Of a stretch of 35,253 nucleotides of DNA, positions 5,441 to 35,253 are shown piece after piece. The translations under genes were made by a program, and so were the position numbers. Positions within the stretch are counted from its first letter, which is position 1, and each line of letters opens with the position of its first letter. The stretch is taken from contig CANRSN010000021.1 in NCBI GenBank assembly GCA_947642455.1, positions 1 through 35,253 on the forward strand. Direction: 5' to 3'. The notes beneath the pieces are model-generated. The model did no database searches, had not been told where the DNA came from, and saw only the letters and a list, made by a program, of their open reading frames with translations. The DNA is from an uncultured Clostridiaceae bacterium (GTDB lineage Bacteria; Bacillota; Clostridia; TANB77; CAG-508).

Positions 5441-5830
5441 TTTCCCTTAAAGTAGACACTAATAAAAAAAGTGAAGGAACTGAGCCATATACCAACTTAA
5501 GTGATACTCAAAAATAATGTCATATATAGAAAAATATTACCCAGAGTTAGTTAAGAATGAACTCTGTATTGTACAGGGCTCATTCCTTGACTTTGTCAAG
5601 TAAAGTGTGTAATTTTTTTTGAAAATTTAATTTTTATGAAATCGATGACTAAATTAAGCCATCGATTTTGATTCTATCTTTAGGATTTACATAATTTATC
5701 CATAAAGGCACAATTAATAAACCAAAGAAATTCTCTGCTAATGAATTATCTAAACAATTTCCTTTTCTTGACATACTTTGCCTAATTCCTTTTTCACTTA
5801 ATAAATGCTGATATTGTTTCTAACTTATTA
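5441..5830 (-). mobile_element. remnant of an IS3-family insertion sequence (IS150-like)
   Basis: On the minus strand, 5813 down to ~5700 encodes YQHLLSEKGIRQSMSRKGN followed by CLDNSLAENFFGLL, the characteristic C-terminal block of IS3-family transposase (OrfB, DDE type, with the catalytic Glu of AENFF). After a stop near 5655 and further decay, 5583-5551 encodes GMSPVQYRVHS and a stop, the family's usual C-terminus. Beyond that, 5444-5459 reads on the minus strand as GTGTCTACTTTAAGG, like the ends of many IS3-group elements. The 5' half of the element is gone, so it is inactive. Confidence 0.75.
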
Positions 5831-23862: not shown

Positions 23863-23892
23863 GTTCTAATACAACCTCTATATGAATACAAT
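23863..23892 (+). promoter_or_regulatory. possible sigma-E-type promoter of spoIIID
   Basis: AATACAAT (23885-23892) resembles the sigma-E -10 CATACAnT, with GTTCTAATA (23863-23871) about 13 bp upstream as a -35. spoIIID is transcribed by sigma-E in other spore formers, so the position is right, but the match is loose. Confidence 0.35.
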
Positions 23893-23925
23893 AAAACAAA
23901 AGTATTCACATGGAGGTTTTCTTAT

Positions 23926-24081
23926 ATGAAAGGTTATTCAATAGAAGAACGTGCAATAAATTTAGCACATTATATTATAGATTCAAAAGATACTGTAAGA
24001 GGTGCAGCGAAAAAGTTTGGAATAAGTAAAAGCACAGTACACAAAGATGTAACACTAAAGAACGGTAGAAAAAGTGGATAA
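23926..24081 (+). pseudogene. spoIIID: spoIIID, 5' part, interrupted at an attachment site
   Basis: ATG 23926 behind TGGAGGT encodes MKGYSIEERAINLAHYIID, then SKDTVRGAAKKFGISKSTVHKDVT: the N-terminal half of SpoIIID with its helix-turn-helix, matching the family (KTVRxxAKxFGVSKSTVHKD). The normal protein is ~80-95 residues and continues with a basic C-terminal region required for DNA binding. Here, from the 26-bp core at 24034 onward, the frame runs into unrelated sequence (LKNGRKSG, stop at 24081). SpoIIID is the mother-cell regulator acting between sigma-E and sigma-K. The break at a direct repeat shared with a serine recombinase gene indicates insertion of a mobile element, not random decay. 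Confidence 0.85.
24034..24059 (+). repeat. left attachment core (attL)
   Basis: Identical over 26 bp to 34431-34456. After one mismatch a further 13 bp (24061-24073) are identical, then ~100 bp are similar at a lower level. To the left, the similarity stops and spoIIID coding sequence begins. Confidence 0.85.
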
Positions 24082-24180
24082 GTCGTTCCAGAAAGTATTG
24101 AGATAAAGGGGTTTTCTTAAGTATAAAAAATCCTGTTGTTAGATTAAGTTTGATGATTAAATAGAATATATAATTAAATT

Positions 24181-24224
24181 AAAAACTCCAAGTATATGGT
24201 TATGCATATATATGGAGTTTTTAT
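24181..24224. terminator. bidirectional terminator at the element left end
   Basis: AAAAACTCCA (24181-24190) pairs with TGGAGTTTTT (24213-24222), with further pairing AGTATATGG/CATATATAT inside. It lies between the truncated spoIIID frame and a leftward small pseudogene and could serve both. Confidence 0.75.
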
Positions 24225-24227
24225 TAA

Positions 24228-24393
24228 TTATAATACAATAGGCTTTTGCTTACGCCGACGCTTTCTTAATTCGAGACCATATCCTTGTCTTAATGAATAT
24301 TCACTAAGACTATCTAAAGGATTTTGACCATCAGGTTTTTTTATATGTCTTACTGGAAAAAGTATCGATAATTCTTTGCTTTTCTAAACTCAT
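24228..24393 (-). pseudogene. small basic protein, frameshifted
   Basis: ATG 24393 behind GGAGGAATT begins MSLEKQRIID and soon stops. The neighbouring frame continues LFPVRHIKKPDGQNPLDSL, then SEYSLRQGYGLELRKRRRKQ, and stops at 24228. Together about 55 residues with one base shift near TTTTTCC (~24356-24362). Unknown function. It is the first gene inside the left end of the element. Confidence 0.5.
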
Positions 24394-24488
24394 ATTAATT
24401 CCTCCTGTCAGTAGACATGAATTTTATGCATAACCATAAAATTTCAGAAACATATACAACAAGTTACATTGTTTAAATTATAATTTAA

Positions 24489-24713
24489 TTTGTAATCAAA
24501 GTCAAAAAAAAAGTAAAAAATTCAAAAATATATACAGATGAAATATGTTGGGGAAAATTGCTAGAAAAAGAATTGGAGACAGGAATTGATATTCCACAGG
24601 AATGTTTAAATGAATACAACAAAATAAGAGAAGAACATAATATAAATAACGATTCAATTGAAGTATGGAAAGTAGCTATGCAAAATATATTTGATAAGTA
24701 TAAACTAGAGTAA
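24489..24713 (+). pseudogene. fragment of an unknown protein
   Basis: A frame open from 24489 to the TAA at 24711-24713 has a fluent 3' part (EICWGKLLEKELETGIDIPQ, ...SIEVWKVAMQNIFDKYKLE) but no start codon with a ribosome site. After it, ATG 24742 behind AGGAGAAAA encodes only MRYLIIYYFFY before a stop, another remnant. Function not recognised. Confidence 0.35.
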
Positions 24714-24866
24714 TAGAAATAAATTAATTTAGGAGAAAATTATGAGGTATCTTATTATTTATTATTTTTTTTATTGATAATTCAATCAATAAAAAAATAT
24801 GGAAAGCTAAATATAGAAAATATATTGTAAACAAAGCTATATTTGATTGTGATTAAGCTAGATTTT

Positions 24867-25073
24867 TTAATTATTAAAACTAAAAGCAGAAGATATAGTT
24901 TCAAATGAACCAACAAAAATATTTTTCTTAGGTCGTTTGACCTTGTCAGCAGGATTATTAACAATTAAATCATTTTTAAAAGCATAATCAAGTGATTTTC
25001 TAATAATAGCATGATAACGAATAACGGTAGTAGGTTTTAGTCCATCAGCTAATAAAATATCATAAAAATTTTG
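24867..25073 (-). pseudogene. tyrosine recombinase (phage integrase) N-terminal fragment
   Basis: Minus-strand frame FYDILLADGLKPTTVIRYHA, then IIRKSLDYAFKNDLIVNNPA and DKVKRPKK..FVGSF, matches the core-binding (SAM-like) domain and linker of Tn916-type tyrosine integrases. The start and the whole catalytic domain are missing. It stops at 24867 after a short unrelated tail. It shows that a different integrative element was once present here. Confidence 0.7.
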
Positions 25074-25179
25074 TTTTTGTTACAATGTAATGTTTTAAAT
25101 AAATAAGAAATATAAGGGATTTGATATTATGAAACAATAAAAAAGCAAAAAAATTGTTACAAGTAACACTAGAAATATA

Positions 25180-25208
25180 TTGTAAAATAGTAACAAAGGT
25201 AGTATAAT
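25180..25208 (+). promoter_or_regulatory. promoter of the MazF-like gene
   Basis: TTGTAA (25180-25185), 17-bp spacer, TATAAT (25203-25208). A GTTAC-AA-GTAAC palindrome lies just upstream (25156-25167), and another GTAAC lies in the spacer (25190-25194). These could be operator sites for autoregulation. Confidence 0.6.
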
Positions 25209-25239
25209 TTAAACACATTATAAGAAAAGAGGTAATTTA

Positions 25240-26001
25240 TTGAATAAAGAAGATGTAATCAAAAACAAAAATGAAGCAATAAAAATGATGACAGATTATT
25301 TAGATAATTGCTTAGCAATAGATGATAATTCTAATATAAAGAAAGTTAATCTAATTTCATATTGGCAAAAAGATTATATAAATTATATTAAAGATGAAAA
25401 AAATTTTAATCCTATAAATTTAAAGACATATGAAAGAGGAGATATAATTAAAGTAAATTTAGGCTTTAATATTGGAAGTGAATTAGGTGGATTGCATTAT
25501 TGCGTTGTTATAGATAAGAAAAATAATAGAAATTCGCCAGTAGTTACAGTAATTCCATTATCATCTCAAAAGATAGATATTATTAATAAAAATTCTATAA
25601 TGCTAGGAAATGATATTTATAATAAATTAGTAGAAAAATCAGATAAATTGCTTGCAGATAGTAAAATAGAAATAGAAGAAAATAAAAATAAGTTACTAAT
25701 TGAAACTAAAAAACTAACACAAAATAATGCAACATCAGATGAAATTTATTTAAAAACCAGTGAACTAAACAATAATATAACAGAAGCATATAAAAAATTA
25801 GAGTTAGCCGAAAAAATAAATAAAGAAGTTCAAAAAATGAAATTCGGAAGTATTGCTATAATAAATCAAATAAGAGTAATTAGTAAACAAAGAATTTATG
25901 ATCCAAAAACGGAATTTGATATATTATCAGGAATAAAATTATCTAATGAAAATTTAGATTTGATAGATGAAAAAATTAGAAAAATGTTTATAAAAAATTG
26001 A
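25240..26001 (+). CDS. PemK/MazF-like toxin-family protein with coiled-coil insert
   Basis: 253 residues, apparently intact. The MazF/PemK barrel starts at YERGDIIKVNLGFNIGSELG (64-83), followed by GLHYCVVIDKKNN and SPVVTVIPLSS, and ends with GSIAIINQIRVISKQRIYD (203-221). Between them, residues ~125-198 are a Lys/Glu-rich coiled coil, and ~60 helical residues precede the barrel, so the protein is over twice the size of a classic MazF (~110 aa). No antitoxin-like gene is adjacent. It may be a self-restrained or orphan mRNA interferase, or a domesticated relative. TTG 25240 start with AGAGG 8 nt upstream; own promoter. Confidence 0.75.
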   Translation: MNKEDVIKNKNEAIKMMTDYLDNCLAIDDNSNIKKVNLISYWQKDYINYIKDEKNFNPINLKTYERGDIIKVNLGFNIGSELGGLHYCVVIDKKNNRNSPVVTVIPLSSQKIDIINKNSIMLGNDIYNKLVEKSDKLLADSKIEIEENKNKLLIETKKLTQNNATSDEIYLKTSELNNNITEAYKKLELAEKINKEVQKMKFGSIAIINQIRVISKQRIYDPKTEFDILSGIKLSNENLDLIDEKIRKMFIKN

Positions 26002-26010
26002 GTATTTTTC

Positions 26011-26090
26011 TTGACTAAAGTACATAATATATATTATAATGTATTTATAATACATTTGCCGTGCAATATATTTTATATTGTGTACCGGCA
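26011..26090 (+). promoter_or_regulatory. promoter and structured leader of the broken GNAT gene
   Basis: TTGACT (26011-26016), 18-bp spacer, TATAAT (26035-26040). The transcript would begin with a hairpin: TGCCG (26057-26061) with CGGCA (26086-26090) and CAATATA (26064-26070) with TATATTG (26074-26080). The leader may once have regulated the gene that is now decayed. Confidence 0.5.
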
Positions 26091-26133
26091 CGAAAGAATA
26101 CACGTTCCTCGTATATAAATATGGGGAATTTAT

Positions 26134-26331
26134 ATTTTAAAGGAAGATATAGAAAAGTTTATTATAGACAAAGATAATTATTGTTTTATAGGAATGAGTG
26201 AAAATAAAGTAGTTGCACTTTTATATGGTTATGGAATGTTAAGACCAAATGGAAAATCAATGTTTTAAATACATTCAGTTGATGTTATTTTAGAATACCA
26301 AAATATTAGTAAAAGTTTAGAAGAGGTGTGA
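26134..26331 (+). pseudogene. GNAT acetyltransferase fragment
   Basis: An open frame without a start reads YCFIGMSENKVVALLYGYGM, LRPNGKSMF, then an in-frame TAA, then IHSVDVILEYQN and a stop. This matches GNAT proteins of the aminoglycoside 3-N-acetyltransferase I type, in which a MF(Y/F)IHSVDV block precedes the acetyl-CoA loop. That loop (QxxGxG/A) and the C-terminus are missing. An internal stop plus truncation make it dead. Confidence 0.6.
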
Positions 26332-26334
26332 TAG

Positions 26335-26932
26335 ATGGTAAAAGTTCTATTTACAGGGGGATCTGGTGCTCGGAAAGACAAGTATAATTGAATATCTAAA
26401 AAAATATTTTGAAAATAAAGGCTATGATGTATTTATAGTAAATGAAGTTCCTACAATGCTTTTAAATAATGGTTTCAACTCCAAAAGATGTGGAAAATTA
26501 AATTTTTTAGAACTAATTGCAAAAATTGAATTATCTTTAGGAAATATTTTAGAAAAGGAAGCTAATGACTCTATAAATGAAAATAAAATAATGTTTTGGG
26601 ATAAATGTCCGATAGATAATTTAGCTTTTATTGACAGAGATGAATTAGATATTATGCTAAAAAAATTAAATACTTCTTATAGTGAAATTATAAATTCATA
26701 TGATTTAATCATTCATTTAGAAACAATAGCAAAAGATTATCCAGAGTTATATACTAATGAAACTAATAAAAATAGAACTTTAGATAAAGATTTAGCTATT
26801 AAGCGAAATGATAGATTATTAAAAGCTTATAATGACTGTACTAAAAGAGTTATTATTAATTGTTATAAAGATATAAAAGATAAACAAGAAAAGGTTATAG
26901 AAGAAATAGAGAAAATATTAGCTAATAGTTAG
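26335..26932 (+). pseudogene. P-loop kinase/ATPase with a one-base frameshift in the P-loop
   Basis: ATG 26335 behind AGAGGTG starts MVKVLFTGGSGA and then runs out of frame. Skipping one base (about C26371) gives GKTSIIEYLKKYFENKGYD and an open frame of 198 residues to 26932. The restored Walker A is GGSGAGKTS, and WDKCPIDNLAFID is Walker-B-like. This is an AAA_28/NadR-type kinase fold. The only damage is one base, so it is either a very recent mutation or a sequencing/assembly error. An annotation starting at GTG 26366 would lose half of the P-loop. Confidence 0.75.
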
Positions 26933-27140
26933 AGGAAAATTAATATTATAAATAGCAAGTATTCTGTTACTAAAAACATCTAACTAAAATCTAACCAAAG
27001 TAAGAATAATTTACAAAATAGCCTAAAATTTTATAAATATTCATACTACTAAAATTTATCAAAAAAATGTCAAAAATCATTGCAATTTCAAGACTTTAAA
27101 GTTACTTAATATACCCTAAAAAATTTCAAAAGATTTTTAG

Positions 27141-27302
27141 ATGAACACATGTGGAATGTGTAGCAGTGCTACAACTAAAGCAAGACATGTAATGCTTGAT
27201 TTTGATATGGTTTTAGAGATTATAACTTTTGAAGAAAAAGGCAGATTTCGAAAAGAAAAACATCAAAATCTAGGCATTTCAGATGTTAAGAAGAATTTAT
27301 AA
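27141..27302 (+). CDS. small hypothetical protein (53 aa)
   Basis: ATG 27141 encodes MNTCGMCSSATTKARHVM, then LDFDMVLEIITFEEKG and a basic tail. No clear ribosome site. Its N-terminal DNA (27146-27177) resembles 34985-35017 in the second element, where CGMLLGAISKEL is encoded in the matching frame, so these may be remnants of a common element gene. The preceding gap 26933-27140 holds nothing recognisable. Confidence 0.3.
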   Translation: MNTCGMCSSATTKARHVMLDFDMVLEIITFEEKGRFRKEKHQNLGISDVKKNL

Positions 27303-27329
27303 AAATGAGTTATAGAGAATCTTTATAAA

Positions 27330-27367
27330 ATAGGTGTCAGTAGATATATGCTGATGTCTATTTTTTT
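27330..27367 (+). terminator. intrinsic terminator
   Basis: ATAGGTGTCAG (27330-27340) pairs with CTGATGTCTAT (27351-27361) using three consecutive wobble pairs, followed by seven T. Confidence 0.7.
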
Positions 27368-27499
27368 GTCCTATACATTTGCAAAATAATTCTAATCTCC
27401 AATAAAAATAATATAAAGAGTAAATAAACTCGTTATCACTCGCTCTTGACATTATTTCTATTGGAGATTTTGTGGCAATTAAGCAAATGTAAGGATAAA
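27366..27499. repeat. ~134-bp long inverted repeat, MITE-like
   Basis: The left arm (TACATTTGC... AATCTCCAAT... AATAAT) and right arm (ATTATT... ATTGGAGATT... GCAAATGTA) are complementary over ~50 bp with small bulges, around a loop with GAGT/ACTC at 27418-27440. No coding content and no obvious target duplication. It sits where a 2-hydroxyacid dehydrogenase gene has lost its 5' part, so it may mark the rearrangement. Confidence 0.55.
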
Positions 27500-27514
27500 T
27501 ATGTTTTGTAAATA

Positions 27515-27697
27515 TTGGCAAAACACTATGAAAAATTGTTAATTTGTGATATAAATAAAGAAAATTATAAAGACTTATTAAATACAAAAAGAAATAATGT
27601 AATAGTAACGCCACATATAGCAGGAGTAACAAAAGAGGCAATAAAAAGAATGGATGTCGAACTAGCAAATAGTATAAATGAATATTTAGAAAAGTAA
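27515..27697 (+). pseudogene. 2-hydroxyacid dehydrogenase, C-terminal fragment
   Basis: The last ~35 residues, NVIVTPHIAGVTKEAIKRMD and VELANSINEYLEK, are the typical C-terminal end of D-isomer-specific 2-hydroxyacid dehydrogenases (TPHIAG with its conserved His). The NAD-binding domain is absent, and the first codons after TTG 27515 look unrelated, with no ribosome site. A severed gene end. Confidence 0.7.
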
Positions 27698-27698
27698 A

Positions 27699-27806
27699 AT
27701 TATAGAACTATGGGAAGTATTGGATAGCAAAGGAAATCCAACAGGAGAAATAACAGTTAATTATGGATATATACCAAATACAATAAGTGAGATGGAGAGG
27801 AACTAG
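27699..27806 (+). pseudogene. NUDIX hydrolase, N-terminal fragment
   Basis: IIELWEVLDSKGNPTGEI resembles the start of small NUDIX hydrolases (ELWDVYDxxGNxTG). The frame ends at 27804-27806 before the Nudix box. It directly abuts the pyrophosphatase fragment, so a deletion joined the two. Confidence 0.5.
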
Positions 27807-27997
27807 ATTGTTATATATTAGGAATTTTTGAACCAATAGAAAGTTTTACAGGAAAATGTATAGCAATAATACATAGATTAAATGATAATGATGATAAATT
27901 AGTTTTAGTACCAGAAGATAAAAAATATGCAGATGATGAAATTTGAGCATTGACAGAATTTCAAGAAAGATTTTTTGAAAGTACGATTATTAGCTAA
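27806..27997 (+). pseudogene. inorganic pyrophosphatase-like C-terminal fragment with internal stop
   Basis: DCYILGIFEPIESFTGKCIA, IIHRLNDNDDKLVLVP, then DDEI, an in-frame TGA at 27944-27946, then ALTEFQERFFESTIIS. It matches the C-terminal part of soluble inorganic pyrophosphatase-like proteins (the stop replaces a residue in DDEIxALTEFQERFF). The 5' half is missing. Confidence 0.65.
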
Positions 27998-28018
27998 TAT
28001 AGATGGAGGAAAAATAAT

Positions 28019-28123
28019 ATGAATTATAGTTATTTAATAGGAATTAATAATATTGAAAAATTAAAACAGAATAATTTTGAAATTAAATCATTATGTTATA
28101 ATTCATGTAAATTAGAAATATAA
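28019..28123 (+). CDS. small ORF (34 aa), possibly a truncated gene start
   Basis: ATG 28019 with GGAGGAA upstream encodes MNYSYLIGINNIEKLKQNN, FEIKSLCYNSCKLEI. It is too short to assign. It may be the preserved start of a longer lost gene. It ends 11 bp before the GNAT gene. Confidence 0.3.
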   Translation: MNYSYLIGINNIEKLKQNNFEIKSLCYNSCKLEI

Positions 28124-28134
28124 GAGGATAAAAA

Positions 28135-28389
28135 ATGATTAATATTAAATTTATAAAAAAAGAAAATAGAGCAGTTGCTTATGATGATGAAATTGAAATT
28201 GGTGAATGTAAATTTAAAGAAGTGGGAGATATGTGGAATATACTTCATACTGGAGTAGATAGCAAATATCAAGGACAAGGTATTGCAAAAAGATTAGTAA
28301 AATGTGTTATTGAAAATGCAGAAAACTTCAGTAAAAATCTTATTGCAGAATGTTCCTATGCTAAAAAATTAGTAGAGAAAAATAAATAA
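28135..28389 (+). CDS. small GNAT-type N-acetyltransferase (PF14542-like)
   Basis: 84 residues, near full length for the minimal GNAT family (YjdJ-like, ~90 aa). The acetyl-CoA loop is YQGQGIAKRLVK (~63-74), preceded by WNILHTGVDSKYQGQG and followed by the LIAECSYAKKLVEKNK end seen in this family. Substrate unknown. ATG 28135 with AGAGGA upstream. Start of a short apparent operon with the flavodoxin gene, 16 bp on. One of the few intact cargo genes. Confidence 0.8.
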   Translation: MINIKFIKKENRAVAYDDEIEIGECKFKEVGDMWNILHTGVDSKYQGQGIAKRLVKCVIENAENFSKNLIAECSYAKKLVEKNK

Positions 28390-28405
28390 TAGGAGGAAAA
28401 ATAAC

Positions 28406-28879
28406 TTGAATACTTTAATTATTTATGCTAGTAAAACTGGGACAACAGAAAAATGTGCTGACCAAATAAATAAACAGTTAAAAAATTCTAAAATGGTAAA
28501 TATATTAGATCAAAATGAAGATATAAATAGATATGATTTAATTGTGATAGGTACTCCAATTAGAATGGGAATGATAGATAAAAGAATAAAAAAATTTTTA
28601 ATTAGTAATATTGAAAGTTTGAAATCAAAAAAAGTAGCATATTTTATTTGTTGTGGCTTTAATGAAAATTGGAAAAGTTATTATGAACAAAATATTCCAA
28701 AAGATTTGCTAGATAATGCAATTATTTATGATACTTTTGGAGGAGAAATGGATTTACAAAAACAAAAAGGTTTTGACAAATTTATTACAAAGATGGTAAG
28801 CAAGAATACAGATAAAAACAAAGAGATAAAAATATTAAACGAAAATATTGAAAGATTTATAAAATTGCTAGATGAGTGA
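28406..28879 (+). CDS. flavodoxin domain protein
   Basis: 157 residues. The FMN phosphate loop YASKTGTTEKCA (residues 7-18) and IVIGTPIRMGMID (~48-60) are typical of flavodoxin-like proteins of the protoporphyrinogen oxidase (HemG)/Flavodoxin_5 type, and AYFICCGFNEN follows. It probably binds FMN and acts in cytoplasmic electron transfer. TTG 28406 lies 9 nt after AGGAGG. Intact, co-directional with the GNAT gene. Confidence 0.85.
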   Translation: MNTLIIYASKTGTTEKCADQINKQLKNSKMVNILDQNEDINRYDLIVIGTPIRMGMIDKRIKKFLISNIESLKSKKVAYFICCGFNENWKSYYEQNIPKDLLDNAIIYDTFGGEMDLQKQKGFDKFITKMVSKNTDKNKEIKILNENIERFIKLLDE

Positions 28880-28911
28880 TAAATTACAATCTATCAAGGA
28901 GGAATAATAGT

Positions 28912-29160
28912 TTGAATGAAAAAGAAAAAATGTTAGCAGGAGAATTATATGATGCTAACTATAATGAAAATCTAATAAAAGAGAGATATTGGGTAAAAGA
29001 TAAATGCTATGATTATAATCAATTAAGACCATCAAATCATAAAGAAAAAGAAAATATCATAAAAGAAATCTTGGAAAAAACAGGAAGTGCTGTAAATAAA
29101 GATATACCATCAAATGTTGTAGCAGTTGGAAATCCTGGCAAAGTAATAAAACAATTATAA
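28912..29160 (+). pseudogene. maltose/sugar O-acetyltransferase with its middle deleted
   Basis: TTG 28912 (AAGGAGG 9 nt upstream) opens MNEKEKMLAGELYDANYNEN, the Mac N-terminal domain of maltose O-acetyltransferases. At about residue 58 it jumps in frame to SAVNKDIPSNVVAVGNPGKV, the C-terminal end of the same family. The whole left-handed beta helix with the catalytic His (~100 residues) is missing. 82 residues instead of ~185. An in-frame internal deletion; enzymatically dead. Confidence 0.8.
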
Positions 29161-29209
29161 CAAGAAATTACAAGTTATAGAAATGAATAAAATAGCAGAC
29201 AAAATTCTG

Positions 29210-29530
29210 CTATTTTTGATTTTCACGATATTCATTTCCCCATTCAACCATAGAATCTAATATAGGTTTTAAACTAAAACCAGTATCAGATAAAGAATAT
29301 TCAACTTTAGGTGGAACTTCTGCATATACTTTTCTTAAAATAAGACCAGAAGTTTCCATTTGCCTTAAATTATTAGTTAATACCTTTTGAGTAATACCAG
29401 ATAGAGATTTTTTTAATTCTCCAAATCTTTTTGTTCCAGTTAGTAAATCTCTAATAATTAAAACTTTCCATTTATCTCCAATTAAGCTTATTGTTATTTC
29501 AACAGGACAAGCAGGTAATTCTGTTTTCAT
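29210..29530 (-). CDS. HxlR family transcriptional regulator
   Basis: 106 residues, a winged-helix HxlR protein: PACPVEITISLIGDKWKVLI, RFGELKKSLSGITQKVLTNN, then LRQMETSGLI. Cys8 in the CPVE motif is the position used for redox/electrophile sensing by relatives such as HypR and YodB. ATG 29530 is chosen because GGAGGT lies 8 nt upstream; the earlier ATG 29545 overlaps that site. It is divergent from the MBL-fold gene at 29913, a common pairing, so it probably controls that gene. Confidence 0.9.
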   Translation of the reverse strand: MKTELPACPVEITISLIGDKWKVLIIRDLLTGTKRFGELKKSLSGITQKVLTNNLRQMETSGLILRKVYAEVPPKVEYSLSDTGFSLKPILDSMVEWGNEYRENQK

Positions 29531-29815
29531 AAATTCAACCTCCATAAAAGGAGTATATCAATAAAATTATAAAAAGTAAATAGATATAATACTAGAAAGC
29601 CAATAATAGTATAAAATAATATAGTAGTATTTTAAAAGAATATAAGCAATAAAAAAATTTCAAAATTTTTTATTCTATGTAAGCTATAAAAATACACAAA
29701 AGTATCTCCTAGGAAACTATGCCACTTTAAAGTGCCTACTTTACAATGGAAAAATATTCTATTACAATGATTACAGAAATTCAAAAATAGAGTAGCTACT
29801 AAATTTCAAAAGATT
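29531..29815. other. non-coding region between HxlR and the structured repeat
   Basis: AT-rich, no intact frame. AAAAAAATTTCAAAATTTTTTATT at 29651 onward contains an A/T inverted repeat that could terminate transcription. TATAAT-like boxes at 29586 and 29612 may serve the divergent genes. Nothing else recognised. Confidence 0.35.
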
Positions 29816-29874
29816 ATAAGAACCTCACCCACTACACAATCAAATATTGTGAGTGAGGTTCCGAGAACCTTGTT
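29816..29874 (+). repeat. structured ~59-bp repeat, copy A
   Basis: It starts ATAAGAACCT and ends GAGAACCTTGTT. It folds by ACCTCAC (29822-29828) with GTGAGGT (29853-29859) and CACAAT (29835-29840) with ATTGTG (29846-29851). Copy B at 31040-31099 has the same frame of conserved ends, and its stems differ by compensating changes. It lies in the leader of the MBL-fold gene. Confidence 0.6.
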
Positions 29875-29912
29875 GCTTACGCAATAATAAAAATAATTGG
29901 AGGTATTTAGTT

Positions 29913-30707
29913 ATGGAATCAAAAAGAATTGATTTAAAAAAAGGATTTGTAGAAGTATATGATTTTGGAGAAATAAAATTACACAGTTATCAAACAAACG
30001 ATTTAATGTATGATGAAAGTTATATTTTAGAAAATAAGGATAATGTATTATTAGTAGAGTTCCCAGCATTTTATGATAATTTACGAGAATTTGAAGAATA
30101 TGTAAAAGGACTAAATAAAAATATAGTAGGAAAAGTATTTTCAGACCATCCAAATGGAGGAACAATTTTCAAAGATGTAAAAGGTTATGCATCAGTTGGT
30201 ACAATTAAATCAATGAAAGAAGGAACAATAAACGGATTAGTTACTGGATTTGAAACAGCATTTGGAGGAACATTTGCAAAAGAATATCACGAAATAACAG
30301 ATATATTAAAAGATAATAAAGTAAATATAGGTGGATTTGAATTAAATATAACATATCATGATGAAAATATTGAAATAGAGTTCCCACAAATAGGATGTGT
30401 ATATACACACATGTTAGGACACGATTGTCATTCAATAGTTGCAGGGGCAGGTCATGCAAATGTAATTATTGAACAATTAAAAGGTTATAAAGCAAAAGGA
30501 TATAATTTAGTTTTATCAAGTCATTACACACCAGAAACTTTAAAAGATGTTGATACAAAAATAGCATATTTAGAAGAATTAAAAATATTAGCAAATGTGA
30601 GTCACAATATTGATGATTTTAAAGATAAAGTAAAAGCAAAATACCCAGAATATAGTGGATTAAACTATTTAGATATGACAGCAGGATTTTTCTTTCCACA
30701 AAACTAA
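29913..30707 (+). CDS. MBL-fold metallo-hydrolase-like protein without the metal motif
   Basis: 264 residues resembling metallo-beta-lactamase-fold hydrolases: DESYILENKDNVLLVEFPAF at the start, FSDHPNGGTIF where the HxHxDH motif would be, CHSIVAGAGHANVIIEQL, and SSHYTPETLKDVDTKIAYLE. The canonical zinc-binding HxHxDH is absent. Only isolated His/Asp residues remain, so the metal site is altered or lost as in some atypical family members. ATG 29913 with TTGGAGG upstream. Intact, divergent from the HxlR regulator, with a structured repeat in its leader. The substrate cannot be predicted. Confidence 0.7.
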   Translation: MESKRIDLKKGFVEVYDFGEIKLHSYQTNDLMYDESYILENKDNVLLVEFPAFYDNLREFEEYVKGLNKNIVGKVFSDHPNGGTIFKDVKGYASVGTIKSMKEGTINGLVTGFETAFGGTFAKEYHEITDILKDNKVNIGGFELNITYHDENIEIEFPQIGCVYTHMLGHDCHSIVAGAGHANVIIEQLKGYKAKGYNLVLSSHYTPETLKDVDTKIAYLEELKILANVSHNIDDFKDKVKAKYPEYSGLNYLDMTAGFFFPQN

Positions 30708-30779
30708 TTAACAAATAAAGTCAAGGATTGCATAGTAAATTTTGCAATCCTTTATCTATAATATGAGGAGATGATTATT

Positions 30780-31106
30780 TTGGAAAAATTAGATTTTTTA
30801 ATAGAGTATTTATTAAAAGAAAATAAAGAATTAAAAGTAGAAAAAATGCGTACAAACATAGAAGATAAAAAGAATTTATGGAGAAGTTTGTGTAATATAA
30901 GAGATACAAAGCCAATTTCTAATGAATATCTACAAATAGAAAAAGAATATTTACAAGAAGAATTAAAGAATAAGTCTATTACTAAAGTAGGAGATATAAA
31001 ACCAATTTCAGATAGTATAGAAGAATCTAATTTACAAAATAAGAACCTGACCCACCAAAACAATCGAAGATTGTTGGTGGGTACCCCAGAACCTTGTTAT
31101 CTATAA
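30780..31106 (+). pseudogene. protein-ADP-ribose hydrolase (macrodomain), N-terminal fragment
   Basis: TTG 30780 (GAGGAG upstream) encodes MEKLDFLIEYLLKENKEL, KKNLWRSLCNIRDTKPIS, then EYLQEELKNKSITKVGDIKP. This is the N-terminal extension of the SirTM-linked macrodomain ADP-ribosyl hydrolases, in which these residues lead into the macrodomain. At ~31040 the coding sequence is replaced by copy B of the structured repeat, which supplies a meaningless tail (THQNNRRLLVGTPEPCYL). The whole macrodomain is gone. The next segment is a sirtuin fragment, so a deletion across two operon genes is likely. Confidence 0.7.
31040..31099 (+). repeat. structured ~60-bp repeat, copy B
   Basis: ATAAGAACCT ... 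CAGAACCTTGTT, folding by ACCCACC (31051-31057) with GGTGGGT (31077-31083) and ACAAT (31061-31065) with ATTGT (31071-31075) around loop CGAAG. It lies exactly between the macrodomain and sirtuin fragments, so it is either an insertion or a scar-associated element. Confidence 0.6.
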
Positions 31107-31398
31107 ATCTGGATTTGATAAAGAAAAAATATTTGCTACACAAGGAAGTTATAGATATATTCAATGTAGTCAGGCTTGTCATAACAAAATATATGATGCG
31201 AAAGATTTAATAAAAGAAATGATAGAAAAAACAAAGGATTGTAAAATTCCATTTGAAGAAATGGTACATCAAAACAATAATTGGAATTTAGTACGAATTA
31301 ATAAGGATAATAGTAATACATTTTTAGATATTGAAGATAAAAGTATAGCAATTGAAGATGATATAAAGAAAGTAATAGAAGTAATATCACAGTTATAA
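31102..31398 (+). pseudogene. SirTM-class sirtuin (ADP-ribosyltransferase), internally deleted fragment
   Basis: An open frame with no start: YKSGFDKEKIFATQGSYRYI, QCSQACHNKIYDAKDLIKEM, EKTKDCKIP, then PFEEMVHQNNNWNLVRINKD and SIAIEDDIKKVIEVI. It matches the macrodomain-linked sirtuins (FATQGDYGxFQCSxxCH at the zinc region; the NAD-site end with LIRINKD and the I.DDIxxVI C-terminus). About 60-70 residues between CKIP and PFEEM are missing, and the N-terminal Rossmann half is lost. SirTM normally ADP-ribosylates a GcvH-like protein in an operon with the macrodomain hydrolase. Confidence 0.7.
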
Positions 31399-31399
31399 T

Positions 31400-31814
31400 A
31401 TATAAAAATTATTATAGTGAATGGCGAATGAATAGAATACATGAAGGATTTGCATATTCAAGGAATCCATTATTTCAAAACAATGTTTCAAAGGTAAGTT
31501 TAAAACCAGAAGACGTAGACTGCTTAATGTTTTGCTCTAAAAATTATAAGTCTATGCTAAAAAATATGAAACAAATAAATGAAAAGTATAGAATTATATG
31601 TCATTATACAATAACAGCTTATGATACTTGTTTAAATGGATGTAAATATTGTTATGCCAATAAAAGACCAGATTTAGCAAAAGAAATTGTAAAATTACAT
31701 GATAAAAATTCACCACTGTTATTAGGAAATATAAGAGAAACAGATAAAATTACAGAATCAAAGGTTATAAGTTTGATTATTGAGGATAAAGGAAAACAGA
31801 TAAGTTTGATTTAA
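31400..31814 (+). pseudogene. DUF1848 family protein with lost ends and middle
   Basis: NYYSEWRMNRIHEGFAYSRN, KVSLKPEDVDCLMFCSKNYK and KYRIICHYTITAYD are from the N-terminal half of DUF1848. The frame then jumps to TCLNGCKYCYANKRP, the family's C-terminal Cys cluster (iron-sulfur-like CxxxCxxC), and HDKNSPLLLGNI. Full-length members are ~300 residues. The first ~15 codons and ~120 residues of the middle are absent. ATG 31428 is not a real start (no ribosome site; upstream YYSEW is native sequence). Dead. Confidence 0.75.
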
Positions 31815-31956
31815 AATAGATATATAAAGTAAAACACAAATTTTATGGGTAGATTTTGAATTTGCTTTTTAATTATATAGACAGATATTAGCAAGAAATA
31901 TCGGGTATAATAAATCTTTTTGAGTTAAAATTTATTTAGGAACTGAAAGGAGAAAA

Positions 31957-32073
31957 AGTTATGAATTTAAATTTATATTAAAAACACAAAGGGATATAGC
32001 AAGGTCATTAGAAATATCGATATCTTACATTAACAAAATATTTCAAGAACTTATAAAGTTAAATGTTTTATAA
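31957..32073 (+). pseudogene. winged-helix regulatory domain fragment
   Basis: SYEFKFILKTQRDIARSLEI, SISYINKIFQELIKLNVL: a short helix-turn-helix like those at the N-terminus of some nucleotidyltransferases and MarR-type proteins. A nearby ATG 31961 with AAAGGAG upstream reads out of this frame for six codons only. It is broken at its start and followed by decayed sequence to 32200. Confidence 0.4.
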
Positions 32074-32212
32074 AAAATAAAGAATGGAAAATATAGTTTA
32101 ACTATTTAGAAAAAAGGGAAATAAAACGGAATTGAATATATAAAAATCTCATCATATAATGTACTAAAAGTTTTAAATAAAACATAGTATTAAAAGAAAG
32201 TTGGTGAGAATT

Positions 32213-32389
32213 TTGAAAAAGAGTTTGAATATTACATTTATTAATCCTAATACAGAAGAGCAAATAGTACAAGCATTCGCTGGAGTTCTTGCTTATAATC
32301 TAGCTGAGAATGATGAAAAAATAAAATTTGATTACAACAATTCAAATGCTCATCAAAATTCTCACGAAGAAATAGAAGATGAATTGTAA
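32213..32389 (+). CDS. small hypothetical protein (58 aa)
   Basis: TTG 32213 with GGTGAG upstream encodes MKKSLNITFINPNTEEQIVQ, AFAGVLAYNLAENDEK and an acidic tail ending EIEDEL. An in-frame TTG 32201 and GTG 32204 are alternative starts. It overlaps the next gene by 11 bp, so the two are probably translationally coupled. I do not know the function. Its position just before the recombinase suggests a core element gene. Confidence 0.55.
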   Translation: MKKSLNITFINPNTEEQIVQAFAGVLAYNLAENDEKIKFDYNNSNAHQNSHEEIEDEL

Positions 32390-32729
32390 AAATTTAGAAG
32401 AACACTATAAATTTTTAATAGAATATTTGTTATTTGACTTTAAAGAAGGAGAAAAAGAAGAAATAGCTGATAAATTTTATGAAGATATTAGATGTGGGCT
32501 AGTACATTCTGGTTCAACAGAAAATATGAGTGGGTTATCATGTGATTCATTGAATTTAATTACTACTATGAAAGAAAAAAATAAAGAATTTATTAGTGTA
32601 GATATATTTATTATGGATAAAAAACTTAGAGAAAATTTCAATGAGTATAAGGAAAAATTGAAAGATAAAGAACAATATGAATTAAGAAAAAACTTTGTAA
32701 AAATAATGAATGTAGTTTGTAAGATATAA
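32379..32729 (+). CDS. HEPN-like protein (116 aa)
   Basis: MNCKNLEEHYKFLIEYLLFD at the start, then FYEDIRCGLVHSGSTENM (about residues 32-49), in which R-x4-H fits the catalytic/structural motif of HEPN nucleases and RCGLxH is common in abortive-infection HEPN proteins. The family is usually larger, so this may be N-terminally truncated. ATG 32379 overlaps the preceding stop. The role could be RNA cleavage in element or phage defence. This call rests on one motif. Confidence 0.45.
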   Translation: MNCKNLEEHYKFLIEYLLFDFKEGEKEEIADKFYEDIRCGLVHSGSTENMSGLSCDSLNLITTMKEKNKEFISVDIFIMDKKLRENFNEYKEKLKDKEQYELRKNFVKIMNVVCKI

Positions 32730-32751
32730 AAATTAAGTACTATAGCTAAAG

Positions 32752-32779
32752 CTATTCTCAAAAAAGAGTAGTTTTTTCT
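32752..32779 (+). terminator. intrinsic terminator before the recombinase
   Basis: CTATTCTC (32752-32759) pairs with GAGTAG (32766-32771) with small irregularity, followed by TTTTTT. It isolates the recombinase from upstream transcription. Confidence 0.6.
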
Positions 32780-32832
32780 TGCTTTTTTGAAACTGATATG
32801 CTAAAATGTAACAGAACCGAATAAAAGTTACA
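32779..32832 (+). promoter_or_regulatory. recombinase promoter with inverted repeat at the start site
   Basis: TTGCTT (32779-32784), 17-bp spacer, TAAAAT (32802-32807) with TGC before it. TGTAAC (32807-32812) and GTTACA (32827-32832) form an inverted repeat over the transcript start, a possible operator. It looks sigma-A-like; a sporulation sigma site is not evident. Confidence 0.5.
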
Positions 32833-32860
32833 GACAATTAAACAAGAAAGTAGTGATGTT

Positions 32861-34465
32861 ATGAAAATTGCAGCATATGCAAGAGTATCAACAGAAAAAG
32901 AATCACAAGTGGAATCATTTGAAAAGCAAATTGAATTTTTTAACGAATTTACAAAAAAGAATAATTATGAATTGTATAAGCTATATGCAGATGAAGGAAT
33001 ATCAGGAAAGCAAATAAAACACAGAAAGCAGTTCCAACAAATGATGCAAGATGCTAAAGCAAAAAAATTTGATAAAGTAGTTGTAAAAGATGTAAGCCGT
33101 TTTGCTAGAAATACAGTAGATTTATTACAAAGTATAAGAGAATTAAAATCTTATGGAATAGAAGTAGACTTTTTAAATAATGGTGAAATCATGGAAGGTG
33201 GTTCTGAATTTATACTAACTATTTTAGGAGCAATGGCACAACAAGAAAGTGCCAATATGTCTAAAAGAGTTAAATTTGGAAAAGACATCACTGCAAAAAA
33301 AGGAAGAGTTCCTAACATTGTTTTTGGGTATGATAAAATACCAGATGAAAGATATACTTTAAAAATAAATGAAGAAGAGGCAAAAATCGTAAAAGAAATA
33401 TTTGAAAGCTATGTATATAAAGGAATTGGAACAACAAAAATTGCATGGGACTTAAATGATAGAGGAATTAGAACTAAAAAAACAAAATCAAAATGGGTAC
33501 AAACATCTATTGTCAGAATGTTAAAAAATCCAATCTATACAGGACGAGTAACTAATAAAAAGAGTGAGGTAACAGATTTTATAACAGGAACTAGAAAAGA
33601 GTTACCAGAAGAAGAATGGATAACAGTAGAAAGACCAGAAATGAGAATCATATCAGATGAATTATTTAACAGAGCTCAAGACTTACTAGAACAACGCTCA
33701 AAAGAATTTAAATTAAACAATAAAAGAGAAAAAACAGAATATGTATTTAGTACACTTATCTATTGCAAACATTGTGGCTATTCTTTTAGAAGAATAAGGA
33801 GAAAATACACAGAAGATGGGAAAGAATATATAAGATGGGTATGTAGTGGAAGAAACTCAATGGGAGTAAATCATTGTCCAAATACAACTGTAATTGATGA
33901 AGAAGAACTTTTAAATGCCATAAAAGAATATCTAAAAAGCATTATTTCAAATAAAAAGAACTTTATGAAGGCAGTAGAAAAGGAGTTTGAAAAGATTACC
34001 AAATTAAGAGAAAACAATGCAAGAAGTGAAGAAAGTCTATTAAAAGAAATAGAAAAGGTAACTAACAAAAAACAAAAATATATGGAAATGTTTCAAAATG
34101 AGGTAATCAATATTGGGGAACTAAAGAAATACACAAATCCATTAAATGAAGATATAGCAAGATATGAGCGAGAGCTAAAACTAATTACATCAGAAATAAA
34201 AGAAAAAGATGTATTAGAAAAAGAATTATCTAAAACAATTAGCACAGTAGATGATATTCTAAACAACAAGACAATCACAAATGCAATGCTAAAAACAATA
34301 ATAGATGTAATTGAAGTAGATAGTGATTTAAATGTAGAAGTAAGATTGAAATTGCTTAATGAAATAGGCTCTACACCTACTGTAATAACTAACTTCAATG
34401 ATATAAAAGATACCATTACGAAAAGTAACAACAGTACACAAAGATGTAACACTAAACAACGGTAG
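32861..34465 (+). CDS. large serine recombinase (SpoIVCA-like site-specific recombinase)
   Basis: 534 residues, intact. Resolvase catalytic domain (1-~140): AAYARVSTEKESQVES with nucleophile Ser10, GISGKQIKHRKQFQQMM, VKDVSRFARNTVDL, ILGAMAQQESANMS. Then the recombinase domain (KFGKDITAKKGRVPNIVFGY; YKGIGTTKIAWDLNDRGI), a zinc ribbon (Cys302, Cys305, Cys328, Cys339) and a long coiled coil (~350-450). It catalyses integration and excision between short att sites by 2-bp staggered cuts. Its last codons (NNSTQRCNTKQR) are the right attachment core, so each integration or excision rebuilds its 3' end. ATG 32861, ribosome site weak. Probable function: excising this element from spoIIID. Confidence 0.95.
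   Translation: MKIAAYARVSTEKESQVESFEKQIEFFNEFTKKNNYELYKLYADEGISGKQIKHRKQFQQMMQDAKAKKFDKVVVKDVSRFARNTVDLLQSIRELKSYGIEVDFLNNGEIMEGGSEFILTILGAMAQQESANMSKRVKFGKDITAKKGRVPNIVFGYDKIPDERYTLKINEEEAKIVKEIFESYVYKGIGTTKIAWDLNDRGIRTKKTKSKWVQTSIVRMLKNPIYTGRVTNKKSEVTDFITGTRKELPEEEWITVERPEMRIISDELFNRAQDLLEQRSKEFKLNNKREKTEYVFSTLIYCKHCGYSFRRIRRKYTEDGKEYIRWVCSGRNSMGVNHCPNTTVIDEEELLNAIKEYLKSIISNKKNFMKAVEKEFEKITKLRENNARSEESLLKEIEKVTNKKQKYMEMFQNEVINIGELKKYTNPLNEDIARYERELKLITSEIKEKDVLEKELSKTISTVDDILNNKTITNAMLKTIIDVIEVDSDLNVEVRLKLLNEIGSTPTVITNFNDIKDTITKSNNSTQRCNTKQR
34431..34456 (+). repeat. right attachment core (attR or element-element junction)
   Basis: A perfect 26-bp copy of 24034-24059, inside the recombinase 3' end. 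To its right, similarity to the left end of element 1 (24060-24170) continues at about three bases in four, where spoIIID 3' sequence would be expected. Confidence 0.85.
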
Positions 34466-34535
34466 AAAAAATGGATAAGTTGTTCTAGAAGATATTAAAA
34501 TTAAAGGAGTTTTCTTGAGTTAGAGAAATCCTATT

Positions 34536-34803
34536 GTGAAGTTAGTATTGATATATGGAACACAAATATATGAAGTACAAGTAGAAAGTAATGAAAATGG
34601 CAATGTAGAAAATATGGATTGTTATAGACTTTATACAGAGAAAACAATTATAAACATATGGTTCCATTTTTATATTATATTGGTAATGATTCAGTTGGAA
34701 TATAGAAGCAATTAAAAATGATATTTTAGGAGGGTATTCTGAAGGAATCGAGAAGATATTAGATGAATATTTTACAGAAGACAAATTTATAAATGAGGAT
34801 TAA
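34536..34803 (+). pseudogene. unknown protein broken by two frameshifts
   Basis: Three consecutive frames give one fluent sequence: YGTQIYEVQVESNENGNVEN, MDCYRLYTEKT (frame 1), KHMVPFLYYIGNDSVG (frame 2), NIEAIKNDILGGYSEGIEKI, LDEYFTEDKFINED (frame 3, stop 34801-34803). About 88 residues once joined. GTG 34536 is a possible start, but the nearest ribosome site (AAAGGAG, 34503-34509) is too far away. Unknown family. Confidence 0.5.
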
Positions 34804-34992
34804 AAATAATAGATACATAGATACAGGAATTAAATAAAGAAAAGACCATTATTTAGCATACAAATTAGAAAATTTAATAAAAACAAGATAGCACTATTAT
34901 GTCAATTAAAAAATAGTAAAGACACATTAAGAACAATAAAAGATACAATAGAATTTTAGAATAGATATATCTATATTTACTAACCATGTGGA

Positions 34993-35157
34993 ATGTTGCT
35001 CGGCGCTATATCTAAAGAATTAGACAAAATAGTTGAATTTACTGCTTTTGAGGATTTTATTAGTTTTGAGAGAAAAGGCAAAAATAAGATAAAAAGAGTA
35101 GAAAATCATAAAATTAAAGTAACGATAGAGGTTGATATGGTGTGCGGAGCAGTATAA
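34993..35157 (+). CDS. small hypothetical protein or fragment (54 aa)
   Basis: ATG 34993 encodes MLLGAISKELDKIVEFTAFE, DFISFERKGKNKIKRV and ends EVDMVCGAV. No ribosome site. The frame extends upstream as PCGM, matching the CGM start of the 27141 gene in element 1. Probably a remnant of a longer gene. Confidence 0.3.
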   Translation: MLLGAISKELDKIVEFTAFEDFISFERKGKNKIKRVENHKIKVTIEVDMVCGAV

Positions 35158-35164
35158 ATTAATA

Positions 35165-35188
35165 TTGACAATGTCAACAATTTGTCAA
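35165..35188. promoter_or_regulatory. TTGACA/TGTCAA palindrome
   Basis: TTGACA-A-TGTCAA (35165-35177) is a perfect 13-bp palindrome, with a further TTGTCAA at 35182-35188. It may be an operator or a DNA-binding site in the second element. Confidence 0.35.
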
Positions 35189-35223
35189 CGAAAAATAAGA
35201 ATGTTTGGAGATAAAACTTAATT

Positions 35224-35253
35224 GGAAGTGTTTGGAAAAGCACTTTCTTTTTT
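35224..35253 (+). terminator. intrinsic terminator at the window edge
   Basis: GGAAGTGTTT (35224-35233) pairs with AAGCACTTTC (35238-35247), 10 bp with two wobbles, loop GGAA, then six T at the end of the window. Confidence 0.75.

Follow-up and report, generated by a model that had tools for sequence, protein, structure and literature searches.

Elements with a dedicated serine recombinase in the sporulation gene spoIIID of gut Clostridia: a probable skin-like switch

Why does a spoIIID reading frame break off halfway, at a sequence that is repeated about 10 kb downstream? The question is raised by contig CANRSN010000021.1 of an uncultured Clostridiaceae bacterium (assembly GCA_947642455.1). 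All 35,253 nucleotides of this contig stretch were analysed and are called the window here. A preliminary description had proposed that a skin-like intervening element with its own serine recombinase is inserted in spoIIID. The split gene halves, the matching core sequence and the complete elements in relatives support this interpretation, with excision as the inferred step. From the comparisons below it is close to certain that a dedicated serine recombinase integrates the elements into spoIIID and that this system is recurrent and transferable. We assign a probability of about 0.75 to the reading that it is a skin-like switch on transferable elements, which would be excised in the mother cell to restore spoIIID.

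The interrupted gene and its junctions

The features at the gene halves and the attachment (att) sites are as follows.

23863..23892, plus strand: spoIIID promoter, sigma-E-like (GTTCTAAT-N13-GAATACAAT); one match in the window, none in shuffles
23926..24047, plus strand: spoIIID 5' half, up to STVHKD; TIGR02844 positions 4-42 only, E 7.1e-15
24019..24067, plus strand: attL (host left side, core 24034-24047, element left arm), from attL/attR comparison over fetched loci
24042..34437, plus strand: element A, about 10.4 kb from one crossover point to the other, from the repeat spacing of 10,397 and att logic
34412..34464, plus strand: attP-like tandem junction (element A right arm, then the core at 34431-34444, then element B left arm), from att comparison
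34438..35253, plus strand: start of element B, truncated where the contig ends, with another broken copy of the tail, from repeat family D1 and sequence
G000:C20:36853-36990, minus strand: spoIIID 3' half, outside the window, TIGR02844 E 1.6e-19

The SpoIIID frame runs from the ATG at 23926 to STVHKD and departs from the family at the core, where the TIGR02844 match stops at model position 42. The window repeat is 82 nt long and 85% identical, with its first 26 bases exact, and its copies begin at 24034 and 34431, confirming the 26-bp repeat at the frame break and the 10,397-bp spacing given in the preliminary description. Read from the frame, the insertion follows the Val codon and precedes the His codon of STVHKD, so that the helix-turn-helix region of SpoIIID is split. 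There are three copies of the 14-base core, ACAGTACACAAAGA, in the window's genome (G000, 2.22 Mb, a metagenome-like assembly with 5.63% contamination): two in the window and a third at the 3' half of spoIIID on contig C20. Its reversed pattern gives no match in this genome, and the shuffled window averages 0.01 matches with one mismatch permitted.

At 34431 the core is preceded by an element right arm and followed by an element left arm, indicating a tandem attP-like junction and not an attR. Position 34465, earlier taken as the end of the insertion, is the stop codon of the recombinase within this junction, and the window contig stops 0.8 kb into the second tandem element (element B). The core on C20 is preceded by an element right arm and followed by the spoIIID 3' half. 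The 3' half, whose absence had been named as an argument against the proposal, is present behind the same core; a whole spoIIID, the other such argument, was not found in the 2.22-Mb genome, where TIGR02844 yields two partial pieces only. Upstream of the C20 core there are other genes and no recombinase open reading frame (ORF), suggesting that the rightmost element has no recombinase of its own. The stretch from the window contig to C20 is unassembled. The flank beyond the 3' half is about 73% identical over 0.9 kb to the flank of intact spoIIID (three of the six same-genus loci compared). The gene adjoining the 3' half (G000:C20; L003 15824-16687) is a putative yabG. Other multiple arrangements are a passenger of 1.9 kb that encodes a DUF4143 protein and has an att copy on either side (L138 471-2355), a tandem junction that precedes a spoIIID 5' half by 2.2 kb (L154 769-3054), and two spoIIID 5' halves 2.6 kb apart with differing tails (L071, genome G004).

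The layout of the spoIIID promoter is kept upstream of 99 spoIIID genes, whether split or intact; its sigma-E label is putative, taken from the consensus and from similarity. An inverted repeat lies in the promoter and leader (23863-23925), its arms covering the -10 region and the ribosome-binding site. The stem score is 10 or more in 32/99 spoIIID loci and in 0/99 after the 3' side is shuffled. Such a hairpin would hide the translation start in read-through transcripts, while transcripts from the gene's own promoter would be without the 5' arm.

Recurrence, transfer and the restored frame

The recurrence of the split was evaluated in 195 genomes of the family. TIGR02844 matches in 187 of them, above the cut-off in 100, and 64 genomes with weak best matches, including the window's, were taken as split candidates. 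The SpoIIID cut-off is passed by none of the 64, so annotation-based sporulation surveys may miss the gene. An att arm lies beside the half gene in 57 of the 64 (21 genera), and both attL and attR were recognised by sequence in 36. The 57 split genomes are a lower bound, because inspection covered the 64 candidates and a 3' half was also seen in a few of the remaining 131 genomes (e.g. G058, G111). Among the seven unconfirmed candidates, G187 has a frameshift by position, the frame passes through the core in G034 and G088, the arms of G093 are variant, the G122 sequence stops at a contig end, and G080 and G082 are not evaluable. Carriers are patchy within genera, and same-genus relatives have an uninterrupted spoIIID, as the preliminary description had suggested looking for.

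The contigs were scanned by pattern with the window recombinase as the sole query. Of 93 relatives, the best 80 were kept and gave 79 loci with 76-97% identity in the best segment. The spoIIID 3' half begins within 250 nt after the recombinase in 74/79 loci. In the other five, the sequence ends in the recombinase (L128, L142) or 160 nt past it (L121), the locus is the tandem junction mentioned above (L154), or no spoIIID is nearby (L129). The 5' half lies within the stored stretch in 16 of the 38 loci having more than 3 kb upstream. The hosts are uncultured Clostridia and related bins, including Candidatus Merdicola faecigallinarum. Judged from these loci, one mobile-element family is using one exact spoIIID position in many gut Clostridia. 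L088 is counted among the 74 by a weak, 48% match to the 3' half; its recombinase is 95% identical to the window's and lies before a divergent SpoIIID-like 3' part (5462-5593), perhaps an insertion in a spoIIID paralogue.

That the split arose in assembly or binning is hardly credible for the window, where the two halves are on different contigs of a partly contaminated assembly, and is already refuted for the phenomenon as a whole. Both halves lie on one contig, on the same strand and in order, with the element between them, in seven family genomes, and likewise on the single 4.07-Mb contig of G410 from another Clostridia family. Contigs of many relatives do break near the core, but element ends identical in at least 12 genomes (judged by eye) would alone break assemblies. 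For the same reason we rejected the idea that these breaks reflect a mixture of excised and integrated cells; the shared ends explain them without mixed cell states.

The elements move between species. Across 1,485 pairs from 55 loci, the synonymous difference (pS) is smaller for the recombinase than for spoIIID in 87% (medians 0.455 and 0.657). Three pairs share the same or almost the same recombinase, whereas the host spoIIID genes differ with pS of 0.56-0.72; near-identical recombinases in hosts with diverged spoIIID point to transfer.

The att sequences indicate where strands would be exchanged. Intact spoIIID genes have TVHKD in 34/34 rows, whereas in split genes attR often has SVHKD and attL often TVHTE. 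TVHKD is regained only if strands are exchanged within the GTACA that both have in common. GTACAC is flanked by the element arms as an inverted repeat (TACCGTT..G.AA.GT.AC), which makes CA the probable crossover dinucleotide, likely at 24040-24041 in attL. When the flanks are joined at the core in silico, the full SpoIIID frame is restored in 15/16 complete loci, whose elements range from 4,793 to 15,087 bp. The rejoined frame is also open in G410, G336 and G215 of other Clostridia families. In G325, G557 and G565 the join point is off the core, giving STVV, STVI and STKH before HKD, and the frame is open. After removal of 14 loci (duplicates of one place, genes that were whole or frameshifted, and a single paralogue), 123 3' halves were counted, some rows being the same contig fetched twice. 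Every one of them has an open frame of 46-61 codons up to its stop. In the family loci, then, three features of a skin-like element are found: insertion in a mother-cell sporulation gene, an own recombinase with matching att sites, and a reading frame that exact excision would restore.

Element contents, control and the fusion tail

Element A and its immediate surroundings contain the following features.

24048..24164, plus strand: element-encoded tail remnant, in frame with the SpoIIID N half in relatives, here with TAA and a frameshift
24181..24225, plus strand: terminator-like hairpin with a T-rich run, downstream of the tail, seen by inspection of the sequence
25240..30707, plus strand: cargo stretch (Pfam)
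25240-26001, plus strand: PemK/MazF-like ORF (Pfam)
26366-26932, plus strand: AAA_28 ORF (Pfam)
28135-28389, plus strand: GNAT ORF (Pfam)
28406-28879, plus strand: flavodoxin ORF (Pfam)
29210-29545, minus strand: HxlR regulator (Pfam)
29853-30707, plus strand: ORF with no family label
31428..31814, plus strand: ORF with N-terminal DUF1848, apparently a gene fragment (PF08902 positions 19-85 of 262 only)
32161..32191, plus strand: weak sigma-E-like site before c2 (GTACTAAA-N13-ACATAGTATT); one match, none in shuffles
32201..32389, plus strand: c2, a 62-amino-acid acidic protein, isoelectric point (pI) 4.6, candidate recombination directionality factor
32379..32729, plus strand: short ORF of cluster c12, common to one other element (L067), no Pfam/NCBIfam match
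32779..32807, plus strand: sigma-A-like recombinase promoter (TTGCTT-N17-TAAAAT); one window match against 0.11 expected
32861..34465, plus strand: large serine recombinase, last codons overlapping the junction (PF00239, PF07508, PF13408)

The recombinase had been described as intact, and 32861-34465 is indeed open with three Pfam domains (Resolvase, Recombinase and Zn_ribbon_recom). Other serine recombinases of the window's genome are at most 37% identical to it. Seventeen complete elements, the window's and 16 others, were compared. The recombinase is present in 17/17. The protein c2 is found as an ORF in 15/17 (59-74 amino acids, acidic, pI 4.2-5.3), and by tblastn in the other two and in 29/30 loci with at least 6 kb upstream, the exception being L121. 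Neither Pfam nor NCBIfam gives a match for c2 (the window protein and its L107 relative), apart from one sub-threshold hit at E 0.015. The integrase and c2 are thus kept while the remaining gene content varies. A relaxase cluster (c4) is found in 7/17 elements, its single tested member being MobV over the NCBIfam cut-off; integrase and relaxase thus occur together in 7/17 by this cluster, and ORF clustering of the 17 elements found no relaxase-cluster ORF in element A. Clusters of Schlafen-AlbA_2 and DUF6076 proteins occur in 8/17 and 7/17, respectively, and RepL or other replication-like genes in three elements each, with RepL confirmed in the one tested. Further cargo includes transporters of the ABC and MATE types and, in one protein, a match to a model for a candidate defence helicase. 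A phage-like picture seems unsuited, because related elements hold relaxase and plasmid-replication genes; no phage domain was found among the 10 window ORFs scanned with Pfam. The pattern-based scan of viral contigs found no relative of the window recombinase, and among the plasmids listed the best match to it is 33%.

The sigma-A-like recombinase promoter is kept, with variation, upstream of most of the 17 recombinases. The site upstream of c2 looks like a sigma-E promoter: GTAATATT is followed by TAATAGTATT 12-13 nt on in 9/15 elements, the window and L069 have GTACTAAA-N13-ACATAGTATT, and L070, with the most divergent recombinase of the set, has GTAATATT-N12-AAATACAATT. These sites were scored with a sigma-E matrix built from spoIIID promoters, which is too specific and performs poorly on spoIVA promoters. 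The spoIVA control scores from -10.6 to 5.0, c2 from -3.7 to 9.4 and recombinase upstream regions from -13.7 to 14.8, where the background 95th percentile is 2.3; the window's c2 site scores -3.7, under this value.

On this basis the mechanism would operate as follows. A large serine integrase has inserted the transferable element into spoIIID, in the window's genome together with a tandem passenger that seems to have no recombinase. The recombinase would apparently be made from the sigma-A-like promoter, and c2, perhaps from the sigma-E-like promoter, would probably serve as the directionality factor. Once sigma-E is active, attL x attR excision in the mother cell would restore spoIIID; the mother cell is lost anyway, and the spore chromosome would retain the element. 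Developmental excision is likely, at the probability given at the outset; its timing, the role of c2 and the function of the rejoined gene are putative parts of this reading.

Several observations weigh against the programmed excision. The c2 sites are under the background 95th percentile in 13/15 elements, only L066 and L070 being above it, and a strong spoIIID-like sigma-E site (14.8, in L099 only) precedes the recombinase and not c2. The 5' half of L145 is frameshifted before the core, the sole failure among the 16 rejoined loci. G348, a class-level host with a related recombinase, gives no spoIIID match at all. No excised or circular form was seen with an attP pattern that was too strict for the window's own junction; its single match in the 195 genomes is an attR by sequence. 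The insertions may also be too young for the decay of a dead gene, so that conserved halves are not decisive. The weak sigma-E evidence, the unobserved excised junction and G348, together with the patchy distribution within genera and the recent transfer, also speak for a plain insertional inactivation, in which a conserved spoIIID site is hit, sporulation is lost or impaired, and no excision is programmed. We consider inactivation unlikely. All the counted 3' halves are open and the promoters are conserved, the integrase and c2 unit is kept while the rest varies, and spoIVA is as frequent in split candidates (62/64) as in others (124/131), with two pieces in some of both. In the window's genome, sigK-like and spoIVA genes are over their cut-offs. 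The carriers look like spore formers, which does not prove excision, since the insertions may be young.

The tail encoded by the element should be noted. In 15/16 complete relatives, the SpoIIID N half continues in frame into element sequence ending like NPVVKLGLVIK, and this tail is intact in its 43-50 codon form in 34 of the 42 attL loci with enough sequence. Over tail codons 14-43 in 28 distinct sequences, the ratio of nonsynonymous to synonymous differences (pN/pS) is 0.31, with a bootstrap range of 0.20-0.49, and the two shifted frames give 0.81 and 1.40. A 14-sequence subset below 88% identity gives 0.34 against 0.80 and 1.14. The bootstrap intervals of the +1 frame are 0.52-1.48 and 0.54-1.38; those of frames 0 and +1 touch only slightly in the unfavourable direction. 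The SpoIIID N half of the same loci has a pN/pS of 0.30. The frame contrast is clear, though resting on 30 codons, and the chimera of N half and tail looks like a selected protein that the interrupted gene may encode, a role suggested by codon statistics. We also considered whether the tail is a diverged C-terminus of SpoIIID and rejected this, because it gives no profile match (hhalign probability 0.35%).

A selected fusion tail raises the question of whether the interrupted gene makes a useful protein. One answer is that the chimera acts as SpoIIID or as a variant regulator while the element is integrated, so that excision is unneeded. The intact tails under purifying selection are compatible with this, as is transcription of the tail from spoIIID's own promoter, with the terminator-like hairpin following it in the window. 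But the tail is unlike the SpoIIID C-terminal part and has no counterpart of its conserved HIRGGMATKLKY region. Both copies of the tail in the window are broken, five split genes from other Clostridia families have a tail of just a few codons, and the orphaned 3' half stays open. Such a working substitute is therefore improbable. Another answer is that the chimera, present in the integrated state only and expressed from the sigma-E-like promoter of spoIIID, triggers excision by itself or together with c2 and thereby removes the gene that encodes it; the protein would then switch on the very event that restores spoIIID. This is a doubtful idea, and the broken window tails and very short tails elsewhere speak against its being general.

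Known systems and further split genes

The excerpt of PMC5025042 describes the Clostridioides difficile skin element as splitting sigK, with the recombinase CD1231 expressed from a sigma-A promoter and the acidic directionality factor CD1234 from a sigma-E promoter. The spoIIID elements resemble it in that a mother-cell regulator gene is split, the serine recombinase is directly upstream of the 3' half, its promoter is sigma-A-like, and the small acidic candidate factor c2 has a weak sigma-E-like site, comparable to CD1234; c2 is acidic like both CD1234 and SprB (same excerpt). Unlike that skin, the target is spoIIID, and the element is mobile, bears cargo and encodes a fusion tail. Excision of skin requires SpoIIID in both B. 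subtilis and C. difficile, according to the same text (PMC5025042). Here spoIIID itself is split, so SpoIIID cannot be required for the excision of its own element, and the rearrangement would be placed one level above skin.

The gin element in gerE of Bacillus cereus, as outlined in the excerpt of PMC5595907, is 28.6 kb long and has three recombinases, among which the serine recombinase GirC acts with the factor GirX. It is likewise a non-phage element in the gene of a small mother-cell transcription factor with a serine recombinase and an extra factor, but it differs in the gene, the class (Bacilli), the size and the number of recombinases, and the excerpt names no transfer genes for it. Skin (sigK, B. 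subtilis), SP-beta (spsM), vfbin (spoVFB) and yin, whose target yabG is in another species, are excised and their genes restored (excerpts of PMC10747680 and PMC6957869); these are prophages or prophage-like, and the target gene here is another. The relaxase cluster, the RepL confirmed in one element, and the type IV secretion system coupling protein and ParA/ParB of G410 (below) recall integrative mobilizable or conjugative elements. As a difference, integration splits a developmental gene here, and element A has no relaxase-cluster ORF.

The excerpts of PMC5595907, PMC10747680, PMC6957869, PMC5027557, PMC12713726 and PMC5025042 name sigK, spsM, spoVFB, gerE and yabG as split genes, and phages carrying spoIIID. 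The preliminary description knew of no intervening element in spoIIID, and none was found in the titles and abstract starts of the open-licence papers listed. This suggests that the spoIIID elements extend the known sporulation gene-intervening elements to spoIIID, with carriers in at least 57/195 family genomes and less related recombinases targeting the same codons in other Clostridia.

In G215, from another family of an order-level sample, spoIIID is split with the same arms and tail. MT838016.1, an unannotated human fecal scaffold filed as phage, has a 46%-identical recombinase before a spoIIID 3' half and is the sole phage record matching the recombinase. With its recombinase as the query, 391 class genomes gave 12 matches at E <=1e-90, the window's own included, and four of these are directly 5' of a spoIIID 3' half (G557, G565, G503 and G325). 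The gene is in two parts in G410, G336, G557, G565 and G325, only its 3' part was found in G503, and it is whole in G313 and G582. On the 4.07-Mb contig of G410, the 5' half is at 3,646,002 and the 3' half at 3,710,871 on the same strand, with no other match. The insert of about 65 kb encodes, besides the coupling protein, ParA and ParB, a Cas9-like nuclease of 1030 amino acids (L291 9190-12282; HNH_4, RuvC_III and Cas9_RuvC). A 20-kb piece of this element gave no match in phages.

Other genes may be affected. In L271, L272, L274 and L275, recombinases 44-45% identical to that of MT838016.1 are directly 5' of another conserved gene part, VDPI..FFPP, which gave no Pfam/NCBIfam match in the two of four tested; the gene is possibly another target of this recombinase group. 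The spoIVA gene appears as two partial matches, several with similar scores, in genomes such as G107, G174, G004 and G040. In G174 both pieces lie next to each other on a single contig (G174:C10:27207-28680), reflecting either a frameshift or another insertion hot spot. Halves of sigK-like genes lie on different contigs in G197 (C28/C52, profile positions 9-112/106-226) and G201 (C26/C35, 4-118/109-225). One of the G197 halves holds a stop. These halves suggest a skin-like split of sigK in relatives.

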